Source: Candidatus Desulfosporosinus infrequens (GTDB lineage Bacteria > Bacillota > Desulfitobacteriia > Desulfitobacteriales > Desulfitobacteriaceae). From it: 39,788 nucleotides of DNA. The position numbers were made by a program, and so were the translations under genes. The stretch covers positions 1-39,788 of the forward strand of contig OMOF01000512.1 of assembly GCA_900290375.1 (NCBI GenBank). The letters are read 5' to 3'. The notes under the pieces are model-generated. The model was not told where the DNA came from, made no database searches, and saw only the letters and a program-made list of their open reading frames with translations. Below, piece after piece: positions 8,109-26,143 of this stretch (positions within the stretch are counted from its first letter, which is position 1; each line of letters begins with the position of its first letter).

Positions 8109-8297
8109 CAGGAAGAACCAACCGTCCCCCACTTGCACGCAGACGGTGCACATGAAATGTGCCGTCCCACCCAGATAACCTCACCGTTCCCCGACCCCAA
8201 GCCCAGGACGCAGTTTCACACAGCGCGACGTCTTTACGTAAGCAGCCCAGCAAACTTCCGTTCAAGCGACCGACCCCAGACACGGGGCAGTGCACAA
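8109..8297. repeat. Direct repeat unit A (189 bp)
   Basis: Matches 8332-8520 with about five substitutions (period 223 bp). It contains the hairpin GCACAT-GAA-ATGTGC extended by GACG/CGTC (8142-8166). Unlike unit B it is not followed by the AAGGAT hairpins: the sequence after GTGCACAA is AAATGCAAGAAAC instead of GGATGTGCAC. Confidence 0.9.
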
Positions 8298-8331
8298 AAA
8301 TGCAAGAAACAACCGTCCCCGATTGCACGCC

Positions 8332-8520
8332 CAGGAAGAACCAACCGTCCCCCACTTGCACACAGACGGTGCACATGAAATGTGCCGTCCCACCCAGATA
8401 ACCTCACCGTTCCCCGACCCCAAGCCCGGGACGCAGTGTCACACAGCGCGACGTCTTTACGTAAGCAGCCCAGCAAACTTCCGTTCAAGCGACCGACCCC
8501 AAATACGGGGCAGTGCACAA
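8332..8520. repeat. Direct repeat unit B (189 bp)
   Basis: Second copy of the 8109-8297 unit, about 97% identical by eye. Its right half is the left arm of the large structured element at 8436-8639. Confidence 0.9.
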
Positions 8521-8639
8521 GGATGTGCACTGCCGCCAACGCGCCAAGGATGGCGCTTTGGCGGGTACCCCGCTCCCCAGAGCAGGAGCTTGAACGGTTA
8601 GTTTGCTCTGCGTCGTAAGCACCGAGCGCTGTGTGACAC
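8436..8639 (+). other. Structured palindromic element with two AAGGAT-loop hairpins (candidate RNA or REP-type DNA element)
   Basis: Nested pairings, all readable by eye. Outer stem GTGTCACACAGCGC (8436-8449) with GCGCTGTGTGACAC (8626-8639), 14 of 14. Inner stem AGCAAACT (8472-8479) with AGTTTGCT (8600-8607) and GTTCAAGC (8483-8490) with GCTTGAAC (8588-8595). Hairpin GGCAGTGCAC-AAGGAT-GTGCACTGCC (8509-8534). Hairpin GCGCC-AAGGAT-GGCGC (8541-8556), extended by GCCAA/TTTGGC around a C/T mismatch. Smaller GCTCC/GGAGC hairpin (8572-8589) overlapping the inner stem. No clear promoter was seen on the plus strand, so transcription is unproven. The same architecture recurs at 24040-24335. Confidence 0.65.
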
Positions 8640-8657
8640 AAGTCCCTCACAAGTCCC

Positions 8658-8861
8658 TCACACAAGTCCCTCGCTGGCTACACCCACGTCGCTCGCGTCC
8701 ATTGTCAGATCATCCCAAGCCACCAAAGAGCCATCTTCCGCTAAATCATAAATAACAATTTTGTCAGTTTGAGTTGTAAATTCAACGCAACAATCCCAAC
8801 AATAGAACTGCTCTACTCCTACTTTTCCAATGGCACGTCCTGAGCATACCGGACAATTCAT
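8658..8861 (-). CDS. Small zinc-ribbon protein, unknown function
   Basis: 67 residues. Two Cys pairs, CPVC near the N-terminus and CWDC about 20 residues later, suggest a zinc ribbon; I do not recognise a named family. The ATG at 8861 (MNCPVCSG) is preceded by GGGAG 9 bases upstream; the open frame extends three codons further to a TTG. It starts 2 bases after the PRC-barrel gene ends, so the two are probably co-transcribed. The last ~13 residues (DASDVGVASEGLV) and the stop codon lie at the edge of the repeat cluster: the GAGGGACTTGTG repeat word encodes the terminal EGLV and leads into the TGA, so the native C-terminus may have been replaced. Confidence 0.7.
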   Translation of the reverse strand: MNCPVCSGRAIGKVGVEQFYCWDCCVEFTTQTDKIVIYDLAEDGSLVAWDDLTMDASDVGVASEGLV

Positions 8862-8863
8862 GG

Positions 8864-9352
8864 TCACCAACTCCCTTCATTTGTTTGATCCAAGGGGGAT
8901 ACTTGGTTATCGACAATTAAAATATCCTTCCCATCGATCATGACATGCGGCCTGAAAATAGTTCCCCTGCCATACAAAAGGTCAGCGAAGAGCCCATCGG
9001 AAACCTCGAATCCAACAATCTTTTCGACGGAATCATCAATGAAAACATCCTCGATAGTACCTCTTGCGTCTCCACCTTGGGTATAAACTTCGTTCCCCAC
9101 TTTGTCGGACCACCGTATCCCCTTAAGTTCTTCTGTAGTATTTTCACAAATAGTTAAAGCGTCCTTACCAACCGCTACTATGACCTGCCTTGGAATGCCT
9201 TTTGAAGACTGGAAGAAGTGCCCACCTTCTAAGAGAATTCCAACAACCTTATCTTTGTCATTGTCGAGGACCAGATCTTGAACCCAGCCAATCGAGTCCC
9301 CACTTTTCAAATCCAAAACGGGTAGTCCGATAATCTCTCGAGCGCGTCGCAT
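8864..9352 (-). CDS. PRC-barrel domain protein
   Basis: 162 residues with two PRC-barrel-like halves: residues about 3-75 (EIIGLPVLDLKSGDSIGWVQDLVLD, KVVGILLEGG) and about 85-160 (GNEVYTQGGDARGTIEDVFIDDSVEKIVGFEVSDG). PRC barrels are small beta domains found in photosynthetic reaction centre H subunits, in RimM and in many stand-alone bacterial proteins; in sporulating Firmicutes similar proteins resemble YlmC/YmxH or the YrrD type. The ATG at 9352 has GAGGTGG about 8 bases upstream. It lies just upstream of the zinc-ribbon gene and downstream of mnmA; a yrrD-like neighbour of mnmA also fits the B. subtilis order. Confidence 0.85.
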   Translation of the reverse strand: MRRAREIIGLPVLDLKSGDSIGWVQDLVLDNDKDKVVGILLEGGHFFQSSKGIPRQVIVAVGKDALTICENTTEELKGIRWSDKVGNEVYTQGGDARGTIEDVFIDDSVEKIVGFEVSDGLFADLLYGRGTIFRPHVMIDGKDILIVDNQVSPLDQTNEGSW

Positions 9353-23422: not shown

Positions 23423-23704
23423 TTACTTAATAAATTTGGTAAGCACCCCAATAAGCTCTTCAATCGCAGCTTCCTGGTCATGGTTTTCAACGGCGTTTTT
23501 CATACATCCTCGCGAATGGTGTTCAAAGACGATTGTGCCAACTCTATTGATTGCAGCACGAACTGCAGCTACTTGAATCAATACGTCAACACAATACTTG
23601 TCACTCTCAACCATGCGTTGAATCCCTTTTACCTGACCTTCAATTTTTTTCAGCCTGCGCATCAGATCCTCTTTGGATTCTGAATAAGGGGTCGAATTAG
23701 TCAT
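23423..23704 (-). CDS. csoR: CsoR family metal-sensing repressor
   Basis: 93 residues. All-helical DUF156/CsoR fold that releases DNA on Cu(I) binding. The ligand set C38 (KYCVDVL), H63 and C67 (EHHSRGCM) fits the copper-sensing C-H-C pattern; RcnR/FrmR types differ at these sites. RLKKIEGQVKGIQRMVE is the usual DNA-contact helix region. The ATG at 23704 has GGAGGA upstream. A CsoR-like operator sits between the -10 box and the start, so it very likely represses itself and trxA. No copper ATPase or copper chaperone gene is adjacent. Confidence 0.92.
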   Translation of the reverse strand: MTNSTPYSESKEDLMRRLKKIEGQVKGIQRMVESDKYCVDVLIQVAAVRAAINRVGTIVFEHHSRGCMKNAVENHDQEAAIEELIGVLTKFIK

Positions 23705-23747: not shown

Positions 23748-23777
23748 ATTATAGCTAATAACCCCCTCCCCTGTCAA
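23748..23777 (-). promoter_or_regulatory. Promoter of csoR-trxA
   Basis: TTGACA (23777-23772), 18-base spacer that contains GGGGAGGGGG, then a perfect TATAAT (23753-23748). The G-rich spacer may add a second repressor contact. Confidence 0.8.
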
Positions 23778-24039
23778 ACAGTTCTAGGAAAAAAATACCC
23801 AGAAATAAAATTGCACGTTCTTTCATTCACCGGCTTACCTATAACGAGGTAGAAACGTTTCTTAGCTATAAAAGCCCACAAAACGTATTCGCGTTAACTA
23901 ACGCGAACAGCGCCACAACCCCACGATCGTTCCAAATCCCATATACCCAAACCCGAGGAGTTTCTCAGCTAAATGCAAGCCAAGAACCGTCCCCACCTTG
24001 CGTCCCTCGGTCGTCCCAACCCCCGTTGACCCAAGCCAA
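23778..24039. other. Non-coding stretch with hairpin and degenerate repeats
   Basis: No gene. TTCGCGTT-AACT-AACGCGAA forms an 8-bp hairpin at 23888-23907. The words GTTTCTTAGCTATAAAAGC (about 23857), GAGTTTCTCAGCTAAATGCAAGC (about 23958) and GAAGTTTCTTAGCTTAG (24043) look like decayed relatives of the left stem strand of the 24040-24335 element. CCAAGAACCGTCCCC near 23980 resembles the AACCGTCCCC words of the 8.1-8.4 kb cluster. Confidence 0.5.
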
Positions 24040-24335
24040 GAGGAAGTTTCTTAGCTTAGTGAAGCACTTAGCGGAATTGCGTCAATGAGCGCAGACGATT
24101 TTGCGTGAAGAAACGCAACGGTTCACATGCGACGGAACAGGATGTTCCTAGTGTCGAATGCGCCAAGGATGGCATAGCATTCGACCAGAAAGCCCAGAGG
24201 TTTTGCGTTTTAGCAAAATCGTCAAGCGAATAGCAATGCAGCGTGTCGATCACGATAGTCTCCAGTGGAGAGTATCGCCGAAGCCGTGATCCCTCAAGGA
24301 ATACCTAGCGGCGTAGGATGCTAAGAAACTTCCTC
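24040..24335 (+). other. Large structured element with (A)AGGAT-loop hairpins (candidate non-coding RNA or MITE-like DNA)
   Basis: Outer stem GAGGAAGTTTCTTAGC (24040-24055) with GCTAAGAAACTTCCTC (24320-24335), 16 of 16. Inner stem GACGATTTTGC (24094-24104) with GCAAAATCGTC (24213-24223), 11 of 11, and AAACGCAA (24111-24118) with TTGCGTTT (24203-24210). Hairpin GGAAC-AGGAT-GTTCC (24134-24148). Hairpin GTCGAATGC (24153-24161) with GCATTCGAC (24177-24185), capped by GCC-AAGGAT-GGC. A further arm ATCACG/CGTGAT (24249-24254, 24285-24290) encloses TCTCC-AGT-GGAGA. It lies just past the aspS stop, in the antisense direction if the AGGAT strand is the RNA. No plus-strand promoter is clear. Confidence 0.6.
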
Positions 24336-24358
24336 TCACTTGCAATCATCTACTCCCT

Positions 24359-26143
24359 CTATTTCTTTTGATTTATCTCAAGATCCGTCTTAATGTGCAA
24401 TTCCTTTAATTGTTTGTCCGCCACCATTGATGGAGCCTGTACCATTATATCTGAAGCGCTTTGCGTTTTGGGGAAAGCAATTACGTCTCGGATGTTATCC
24501 TTTCCAGTTAAGAGCATAATCATTCGGTCTAACCCGAAAGCGATTCCACCGTGGGGTGGAGTTCCGTATTCAAAAGCTTCCAAAAGATACCCGAATTTAT
24601 CCATTGCTTCTTCCTCGGATATTCCTAATAAATTGAACAGTTTCTCCTGGGTACCTCGCCGATGTATTCGAATACTCCCTCCGCCAAGCTCTGTGCCATT
24701 AAGTACCATATCATACGCTTTAGACCGAACTCTAAGCGGTTCTGTCTCTAGGAGCGGCAAATCTTCATCCATGGGAGCCGTAAAGGGATGATGAATTGCG
24801 ATGTAACGTTGTTGCTCATCGTCATATTCTAAAAGTGGGAATTCTGTAACCCATAAGAAATTCATAGTATCTTCCGGAATCAGTCCTAAGCGTTTTGCCA
24901 ATTCCAAACGGAGATGTCCAAGTGCATCGGAGACAATAGCGTACGTATCAGCAACAAAAAATAAGATATCACCGGTTTCTGCGCGCATGCGTTCAAGCAA
25001 GGCACTCATTTCTTGCTCTGTAAAGAATTTAGCAATGGGGGATTTTATCCCTTCTTCAGCCAGGACAATCCAAGCCAAACCCTTCGCCCGATAAGTACTA
25101 ACAAACTTTCCCAGGTCATCGATCTCGCGCCGTGGCAACCCGGCACAGCCTTTGGCACAAATACATTTCACACTCCCACCGCCTGCCACCACACTGGCAA
25201 ACACTTTGAAGCCGGTCTTGCCCACAAGGTCTCCGACATCAATGAGTTCCATACCAAAACGCGTATCCGGTTTATCCGACCCGTAACGTTCCAAGGCTTC
25301 CTTATGGGTTAGACGCGGGAAGGGAAGGTCTAGGGATTTCCCCATCGTTTCTTGGAAAATCCGCGCCATCAATTGTTCCATCATAGAAAGGATGTCTTCC
25401 ACTTCGACAAAGGACATCTCAACATCAAGCTGGGTGAATTCCGGTTGACGATCCGCTCGAAGATCCTCATCTCGGAAACAACGGGCGATTTGGAAATACT
25501 TCTCCATCCCACTCACCATAAGGAGCTGTTTATATATTTGCGGTGACTGAGGTAAGGCATAAAATTCGCCTGGGCGAACACGACTCGGCACGAGATAGTC
25601 TCGGGCCCCTTCGGGTGAGGATTTGGTGAGTATCGGGGTGTCGATTTCATAGAAACCTTGTTTGTCAAAAAAAGCCCGCATAATTTGCATAACTTGATGC
25701 CGGATTTTGAACACAGCCTGCATTTCTGGTCGACGCAAATCAAGATAGCGATATTTAAGCCGCACTGTTTCGTCCACATCAACTTGATCCACAATATAAT
25801 AGGGGGGAGTTTTGGAGCCGTTTAGTATCTCAAGGGACTCCGCAATAATTTCGATCTTGCCTGTAGCTAAGTTCGCATTAATCATCCCTTGAGGCCGTGC
25901 GATGACTTGACCCAGAATAGACACTACAAACTCAGAACGAAGGCTTTCCGCTACAGAAAATCCAGTTCCCATTTTCTCTGGGTCAAAGACAACTTGAACA
26001 ATACCGGAACGATCCCGTAGGTCAACAAAAATCAATCCTCCGTGGTCACGACGGCGCTGAACCCAGCCCAGCAAACGAACGACTTCCCCAACTTTCTCTA
26101 ACCCTAATTCACCGTTTTCAACACGTTCTGAAAATATCGTCAT
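24359..26143 (-). CDS. aspS: Aspartyl-tRNA synthetase
   Basis: 594 residues, bacterial type with the GAD insertion domain. OB-fold anticodon domain first (VRLLGWVQRRRDHGGLIFVDLRDRSGIVQVVFDP), then class II motif 2 (FRDEDLRADRQPEFTQLDVEMSF), the insertion domain (about 280-420) and motif 3 (GIAFGLDRMIMLL). Whether it also charges tRNA-Asn cannot be decided here. The ATG at 26143 is chosen since AGAGAGGTG lies 6 bases before it; it begins one base past the hisS stop, so the genes are translationally coupled. The same T-box leader in front of hisS controls both. Confidence 0.96.
   Translation of the reverse strand: MTIFSERVENGELGLEKVGEVVRLLGWVQRRRDHGGLIFVDLRDRSGIVQVVFDPEKMGTGFSVAESLRSEFVVSILGQVIARPQGMINANLATGKIEIIAESLEILNGSKTPPYYIVDQVDVDETVRLKYRYLDLRRPEMQAVFKIRHQVMQIMRAFFDKQGFYEIDTPILTKSSPEGARDYLVPSRVRPGEFYALPQSPQIYKQLLMVSGMEKYFQIARCFRDEDLRADRQPEFTQLDVEMSFVEVEDILSMMEQLMARIFQETMGKSLDLPFPRLTHKEALERYGSDKPDTRFGMELIDVGDLVGKTGFKVFASVVAGGGSVKCICAKGCAGLPRREIDDLGKFVSTYRAKGLAWIVLAEEGIKSPIAKFFTEQEMSALLERMRAETGDILFFVADTYAIVSDALGHLRLELAKRLGLIPEDTMNFLWVTEFPLLEYDDEQQRYIAIHHPFTAPMDEDLPLLETEPLRVRSKAYDMVLNGTELGGGSIRIHRRGTQEKLFNLLGISEEEAMDKFGYLLEAFEYGTPPHGGIAFGLDRMIMLLTGKDNIRDVIAFPKTQSASDIMVQAPSMVADKQLKELHIKTDLEINQKK

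Follow-up and report, generated by a model that had tools for sequence, protein, structure and literature searches.

A dispersed family of folded, non-coding elements in Desulfosporosinus with the architecture of the TwoAYGGAY RNA motif

The RNA motif TwoAYGGAY has stood as an orphan since 2010, and the single hypothesis put forward for it is that it acts as a CsrA-binding small RNA; we found no test of this hypothesis. Binding of CsrA is proposed in the part of PMC4333381 accessible to us, where validation is described as in progress, and the accessible parts of the TwoAYGGAY literature mention neither dispersal of the motif nor insertion linked to TAG. The DNA analyzed here (the window) is a 39,788-nucleotide stretch of Candidatus Desulfosporosinus infrequens, and it contains one element of this motif, which we refer to as family B, together with a second structured element at 24039–24336, which we refer to as family A.

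8433–8642 (+ strand): family-B element, the TwoAYGGAY RNA motif (RF01731), with an Rfam match at 8466–8613 of 39.4 bits

The score of the window copy lies just under the Rfam cut-off of 43. Family-B copies above this cut-off include L096 (55.3 bits), L106 (48.9 bits) and L031 (44.8 bits), the maximum in the window's own genome being 48.9 bits, and TwoAYGGAY was detected above the cut-off in 23 of 30 genomes of the genus and in 0 of 14 control genomes. A leader, GACCCAAGCC, precedes many family-B copies and is common to family A. A second, broken family-B copy was seen at 8200–8375, whose left part continues as far as GCAGTGCACAA, where TGCAAG..AACCGTCCCC..TTGCA repeats interrupt it. On the other side of the element, a small ORF of 70 amino acids (8658–8870, − strand) ends with ASEGLV and its stop codon inside the tandemly repeated family-B right end, and its last codons were therefore apparently supplied by the element.

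The original prediction, made from the letters of the window, had remarked that the element at 24039–24336 parallels the one at 8436–8639 although their sequences differ, and the two indeed share one layout, the latter being TwoAYGGAY. In both families a stalk helix ends in a tip with two hairpins side by side, each with an A(N)GGA(Y) loop, and the overall length is similar; both occur in the same genomes, with a similar leader and the same junctions at TAG stop codons. At 24039–24336 the two neighbouring hairpins have loops of the A(Y)GGA(Y) type, AGGAT and AAGGAT, which are ATGGAT and ACGGAT in other copies. Unlike TwoAYGGAY, family A has no Rfam match, differs in its stem and core sequences, and has a tip module that is both optional and exchangeable. 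RF01731 does not match 24039–24336 at 43 bits or more, and because there is no match to the covariance model we have not filed family A under TwoAYGGAY. The kinship of the two families is architectural, and family B shows the same insertion pattern as family A.

The CsrA-sponge small RNAs CsrB, CsrC, RsmY and RsmZ likewise carry repeated GGA-loop hairpins, and the GGA motifs of 24039–24336 lie in hairpin loops that fit the published consensus for CsrA binding. Unlike these RNAs, family A is multi-copy, dispersed and mostly antisense to genes, and a promoter or terminator of its own was not seen. REP, BIME and REPIN sequences and other bacterial MITEs are, as family A is, short, non-coding, palindromic, multi-copy and intergenic, and they lie near gene ends; family A differs from them in its much longer fold, its compensatory conservation and the TAG directly at stop codons. 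The REP/BIME signature, GTAG or GGAG at the foot of a 20–40-nt palindrome, was not found: TAG alone is constant, the preceding base varies, and the element measures about 180–300 nt. Terminal inverted repeats, as in MITEs of the DDE type, are present and perfect over 17 bp, but they form the base of a long stalk. The small dispersed repeats (SDRs) of cyanobacteria are nested in one another, so that hairpin modules sit within other repeats as they do in family A. Family A differs in that its nested module, a double GGA hairpin in its own right, occupies a conserved GGA loop.

The fold at 24039–24336

The features of the element and of the sequence to its left are as follows.

24039–24336 (+ strand): family-A element, GGA-loop strand; an interrupted long hairpin with a tip module (17-bp terminal inverted repeat, dispersed copies, covariation)
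24039–24055 (+ strand): left arm of the outer stem, 17 of 17 positions pairing with 24320–24336
24320–24336 (+ strand): right arm of the outer stem, where the element has its right end; the aspS stop is 22 nt away
24094–24104 (+ strand): left arm of the 11-bp inner stem, partner 24213–24223 (centroid; covariation helix 6)
24213–24223 (+ strand): right arm of the inner stem (covariation)
24111–24118 (+ strand): left arm of the 8-bp extension of the inner stem, partner 24203–24210 (covariation helix 7)
24203–24210 (+ strand): right arm of the extension (covariation)
24131–24186 (+ strand): tip module M2 with two GGA-loop hairpins; elsewhere present, absent, or replaced or joined by M1
24134–24148 (+ strand): GGA hairpin 1, GGAAC-AGGAT-GTTCC (sequence, folding)
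24153–24185 (+ strand): GGA hairpin 2, GTCGAATGC-GCC-AAGGAT-GGC-ATA-GCATTCGAC (sequence, folding)
24251–24319 (+ strand): module X, the side arm; a dispersed repeat independent of the element, inserted in the window copy (copy comparison)
24012–24038 (+ strand): conserved left leader of the element, CGTCCCAACCCCCGTTGACCCAAGCC; a similar leader stands before most family-A copies
23974–24002 (+ strand): small separate repeat TGCAAGNNAAGAACCGTCCCC..TTGCG, which recurs beside and inside these elements
23886–23969 (+ strand): remnant of a second left leader, with a hairpin at 23886–23909, then ...GTTCCAAATCC..., and the left end GAGGAGTTTCTCAGC

The outer stem, predicted as 16 of 16 pairs, proved one pair longer, whereas the 11-of-11 inner stem and the 8-bp extension (8 of 8) lie exactly where they had been placed, and the two predicted (A)AGGAT hairpins were located at 24134–24148 (AGGAT) and 24153–24185 (AAGGAT). 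Inspection of the gap agrees with the earlier statement that these roughly 300 bases hold no credible gene, as none was found from the aspS stop at 24359 to the CsoR-like gene (23423–23704), both genes lying on the − strand. For 24039–24336, no Rfam family was found at gathering score in the window, and none at E≤5 in 23900–24400. A comparison with shuffled controls, which the original prediction had proposed, placed the folding energy outside the shuffled distribution on both strands: −115.8 against −81.8 ± 5.6 for the + strand (z −6.07; 0 of 200 shuffles) and −108.9 against −76.4 ± 4.5 for the − strand (z −7.24; 0 of 200 shuffles). With the window sequence alone, the inner 11-bp stem belongs to the centroid and lies outside the + strand MFE; it is backed by covariation, with double changes in 7 of the 13 pairs of helix 6, and the extension (helix 7) shows them in 5 of 9 pairs.

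Family A comprises a core of about 180 nt (about 178 nt in aligned copies) and a leader of about 75 nt, and the aligned core folds as a single interrupted long hairpin. Over 24 copies and 51 named pairs, pairing was kept in 89.5% of cells. Double changes affected 24 of the 51 pairs, compared with a mean of 12.1 in shuffled and 3–7 in slid versions, and the covariation score was 0.200, compared with 0.096 shuffled (0 of 500 shuffles) and 0.022–0.047 slid; the copies are related, so that the changes are not independent events, and the slid control, which retains this relatedness, is still far lower. As examples, AAACGCAA/TTGCGTTT is replaced by AAACTCAA/TTGAGTTT, AACCGCAA/TTGCGGTT or AAACACAA/TTGTGTTT in other copies, and the divergent copy L045 has a different outer stem that nonetheless matches perfectly, GGAGGAGCGTTTTCTGC/GCAGAAAACGCTCCTCC. 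Thus, where stem positions change in homologues they do so with compensation, and the excess of compensatory double changes over both controls leads us to conclude that the fold is conserved. The structure of 24039–24336 is real.

Copies, modules and stop-codon junctions

The element at 24039–24336 is one copy of a large, hitherto uncatalogued, non-coding, dispersed family in Desulfosporosinus. Family-A matches at E≤1e-4 were found in 39 of 61 genomes, including 29 of the 30 Desulfosporosinus genomes and often in many copies, with the reservation that part of the matches outside Desulfosporosinus may cover a sub-module alone. Besides many pieces, the window's own genome has a near-full copy (C957) and two that are shorter (C906, C498); flanking sequences differ between copies of the family. 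An exact search for the core pattern returned 19 places, every one in a single Desulfosporosinus MAG. A unique ncRNA gene is ruled out by this multiplicity. As to other candidates, a phage or plasmid origin found no match in plasmids, in phages or in a viral-contig pattern scan, and retron msr/msd and group II intron readings were without a family match. In two complete or near-complete genomes, most copies of both families lie in a single chromosomal stretch per genome, of about 0.6–1.1 Mb (G007:C1, 3.89–4.48 Mb; G009:C3, 3.80–4.86 Mb).

Between CGG and CAGAAAGCCC, the tip of a family-A copy is empty or holds M1, M2 or M1 plus M2. Both modules consist of two hairpins, whose A(N)GGA(Y) loops are ATGGAT/ACGGAT and AAGGAT in M1, and AGGAT and AAGGAT in M2, the type present in the window copy. 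About half of the family-A copies are without a GGA hairpin, yet these are conserved and multi-copy. Three loci (L038, L013 and L084) have a double-hairpin module, in inverse orientation, precisely in mid-loop between AAG and GAT, with the 10-bp host arms intact on both sides; only such 10-bp-arm cases with module content were counted as nested insertions, and a general scan for nested loop insertions with short arms gave the noise level of the controls. The side arm of the original prediction is present at about 24251–24319 and is not intrinsic to the fold. This module X occurs alone at about a dozen further places in the same genome and is missing from the other aligned family-A copies, and we therefore regard it as a separate repeat.

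Several accompanying repeats were also observed. Module X (CGATAGTCTCCAGTGGAGAGTATCG...GGCGTAGGATG) forms its own repeat family, with members in family A, in family B and in separate larger hairpin arrays (window 24251–24319, L007, L008, L009, L018, L023). The small repeat TGCAAGNNAAGAACCGTCCCC..TTGCA lies beside or inside elements and often marks a truncation (window 23974–24002 and many loci, among them L017, L019 and L005), and a further insert, CGAAGACACTGTCTTCGCACGTATTA..CTTGCAG, lies within loops of the GCCAAG/GATGGC type, between these two halves, in several genomes (L013, L046, L057, L066).

Junctions and orientations were counted from crude longest-ORF calls in related genomes, with some loci of shared ancestry, and the following counts are therefore not fully independent: right ends lay within −2 to +8 nt of a stop codon, in gene-sense direction, in 31 of 99 cases; this stop was TAG in 26 of the 31, against a background of 29% (p=5e-10); and orientation was '--' in 29–33 and '++' in 16–17 cases for family A, and '--' in 15–26 and '++' in 0–1 for family B. 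Since right ends sit behind gene-sense stop codons, the GGA strand usually runs antisense to its neighbour gene, for family B in 26 '--' cases against 1 '++'. The window copy follows this pattern, and its immediate surroundings are as follows.

24359–24361 (− strand): aspS stop codon TAG, followed by AGGGAG, with the element 22 nt on in gene direction
23748–23777 (− strand): perfect sigma-70-type promoter TTGACA-18-TATAAT of the next gene (CsoR-like), outside the element

The latter is the sole promoter-like site of the region, and none was found there on the GGA strand. Orthologous aspS gaps, which the original prediction had suggested inspecting for empty sites, are polymorphic for the element: it is full-length in the window's own genome (G000) and in G022, fragmentary in G002 and G026, and absent in about 25 species. 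In G000 and G022 the element comes after the aspS TAG, and in G026 a fragment lies directly behind this codon; in G025, a relative without the element at aspS, the stop is likewise TAG. The sites compared carried remnants or nested inserts; among them no clean empty site with both ends defined was obtained and no target site duplication was seen.

Proposed mobility and possible CsrA binding

We consider that 24039–24336 is probably a copy of a non-autonomous, non-coding mobile element inserted behind TAG, and the conserved fold suggests that it is recognized, and moves or is processed, as a folded single strand. Transposition machinery acting in trans would recognize this strand, either as ssDNA or as RNA copied back into DNA, and the end of the element would be joined 3' of TAG. 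Behind a stop codon an insertion leaves the gene intact and would for this reason persist, and survival at such sites would account for a GGA strand that is mostly antisense to its neighbour. The original prediction left a choice between a structured RNA and a mobile DNA element travelling as a folded single strand. The structure is conserved and dispersed, and the data, which are compatible with RNA and with DNA, lean toward a mobile element; movement is what we infer. No transposase or autonomous version of the element was found, and part of the spread could be due to gene conversion or recombination between copies.

Derivation from an IS200/IS605-type element, moved by a Y1 HUH transposase and inserted 3' of TAG into the lagging-strand template, is possible, if doubtful. 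Non-autonomous elements of this descent share with family A hairpin structure, a fixed orientation and, as the junctions suggest for family A, insertion 3' of a short fixed target, and Y1 proteins above the cut-off occur in 24 of the 30 genomes. However, the Y1 gene is absent from G029, which is 99% complete and element-rich, as well as from G003, G005, G013 and G024; none was found between these element ends, and family A also differs from IS200/IS605-derived elements in having no tied transposase and in the long stalk that joins both its ends. For co-directional genes the strand behind TAG is the lagging-strand template, and in complete genomes nearly all copies follow the corresponding replication-strand bias, but gene orientation confounds this bias, with 84% of the genes in the tested region on the same strand, and TAG stop codons could by themselves account for it. 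A SINE-like route, in which a resident reverse transcriptase uses TAG as its priming site to copy a GGA-strand RNA, is quite improbable. The right end alone is tandemly repeated in some copies (13-nt units in family B, about 38 nt in family A), as at the priming end of a retroelement, although slippage could also produce such duplications; RVT_1 proteins occur in 30 of 30 genomes, a ubiquity that makes their presence uninformative, and the GGA-strand transcript and a promoter for it are hypothetical. The frequent position of right ends directly behind stop codons, and a − strand that folds as well as the + strand (z −7.24), would also fit a terminator-like or stabilizing 3'-UTR element kept for use on the strand of the upstream gene. 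The stem is not followed by a U-tract, most orthologous aspS gaps are without the element and the modules come and go, and we regard this reading as very unlikely.

Apart from how the element spreads, the GGA strand might be transcribed as a small or antisense RNA whose paired GGA hairpins sequester a CsrA dimer, a role that we consider unlikely. The C-A(N)GGA(Y)-G loops fit the CsrA consensus, and any transcript of this strand could therefore bind CsrA; GGA is kept in the loops while the stems change, the hairpins are paired, weak Rfam hits fall in the TwoAYGGAY/RsmZ clan, and CsrA binding has been proposed for TwoAYGGAY itself. The csrA gene is present in 25 of the 30 genomes, and was not found in two near-complete Desulfosporosinus genomes, G026 and G025. 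In G026 (98% complete), where two stray module matches were noted as well, the GGA tip module occurs in 0 of about 24 readable family-A copies, compared with 10 of 19 copies of the Desulfosporosinus MAG. At the thresholds used, G025 (94%) is without TwoAYGGAY and family A. This correlation with csrA rests on these two genomes, since the csrA-positive G017 is without TwoAYGGAY and the family-A copies read in the csrA-positive G007 carry no modules. Standing against a regulatory RNA are also the mostly antisense GGA strand, the want of a promoter-like site on it here and of an evident leader promoter, the half of the copies that are conserved without a GGA hairpin, and modules inserted in inverse orientation. 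In the wobble test, with fixed G-T pairs set aside and many copies decaying, G-T (G-U) pairs on the GGA strand did not clearly outnumber A-C pairs, apart from a mild excess in family A; in family B there was none.

CsrA binding by the GGA hairpins is plausible; a plain CsrA-sponge RNA is hard to reconcile with the orientation and with nested modules that are inverted. Because of the antisense orientation, the inverted modules, the want of a promoter-like site and the mixed csrA pattern, CsrA sequestration is a possible account of the existence of the element rather than the leading one. TwoAYGGAY and family A might also form a single superfamily of mobile, self-nesting hairpins that colonize TAG stops and carry selfishly spread CsrA decoy hairpins, a proposal that we hold to be rather unlikely.

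Family A is a real new family that has the architecture of a known motif and is conserved, folded and mobile-looking. In these genomes, TwoAYGGAY and its sister family A resemble mobile elements in their dispersal and their link to TAG stops, and in testing the TwoAYGGAY motif its strand, transcription and mobility come first. If the modules bind CsrA, a global regulator would have its titre altered by an element multiplying in the genome; if they do not, family A would be a case of a mobile hairpin that mimics a conserved regulatory RNA.
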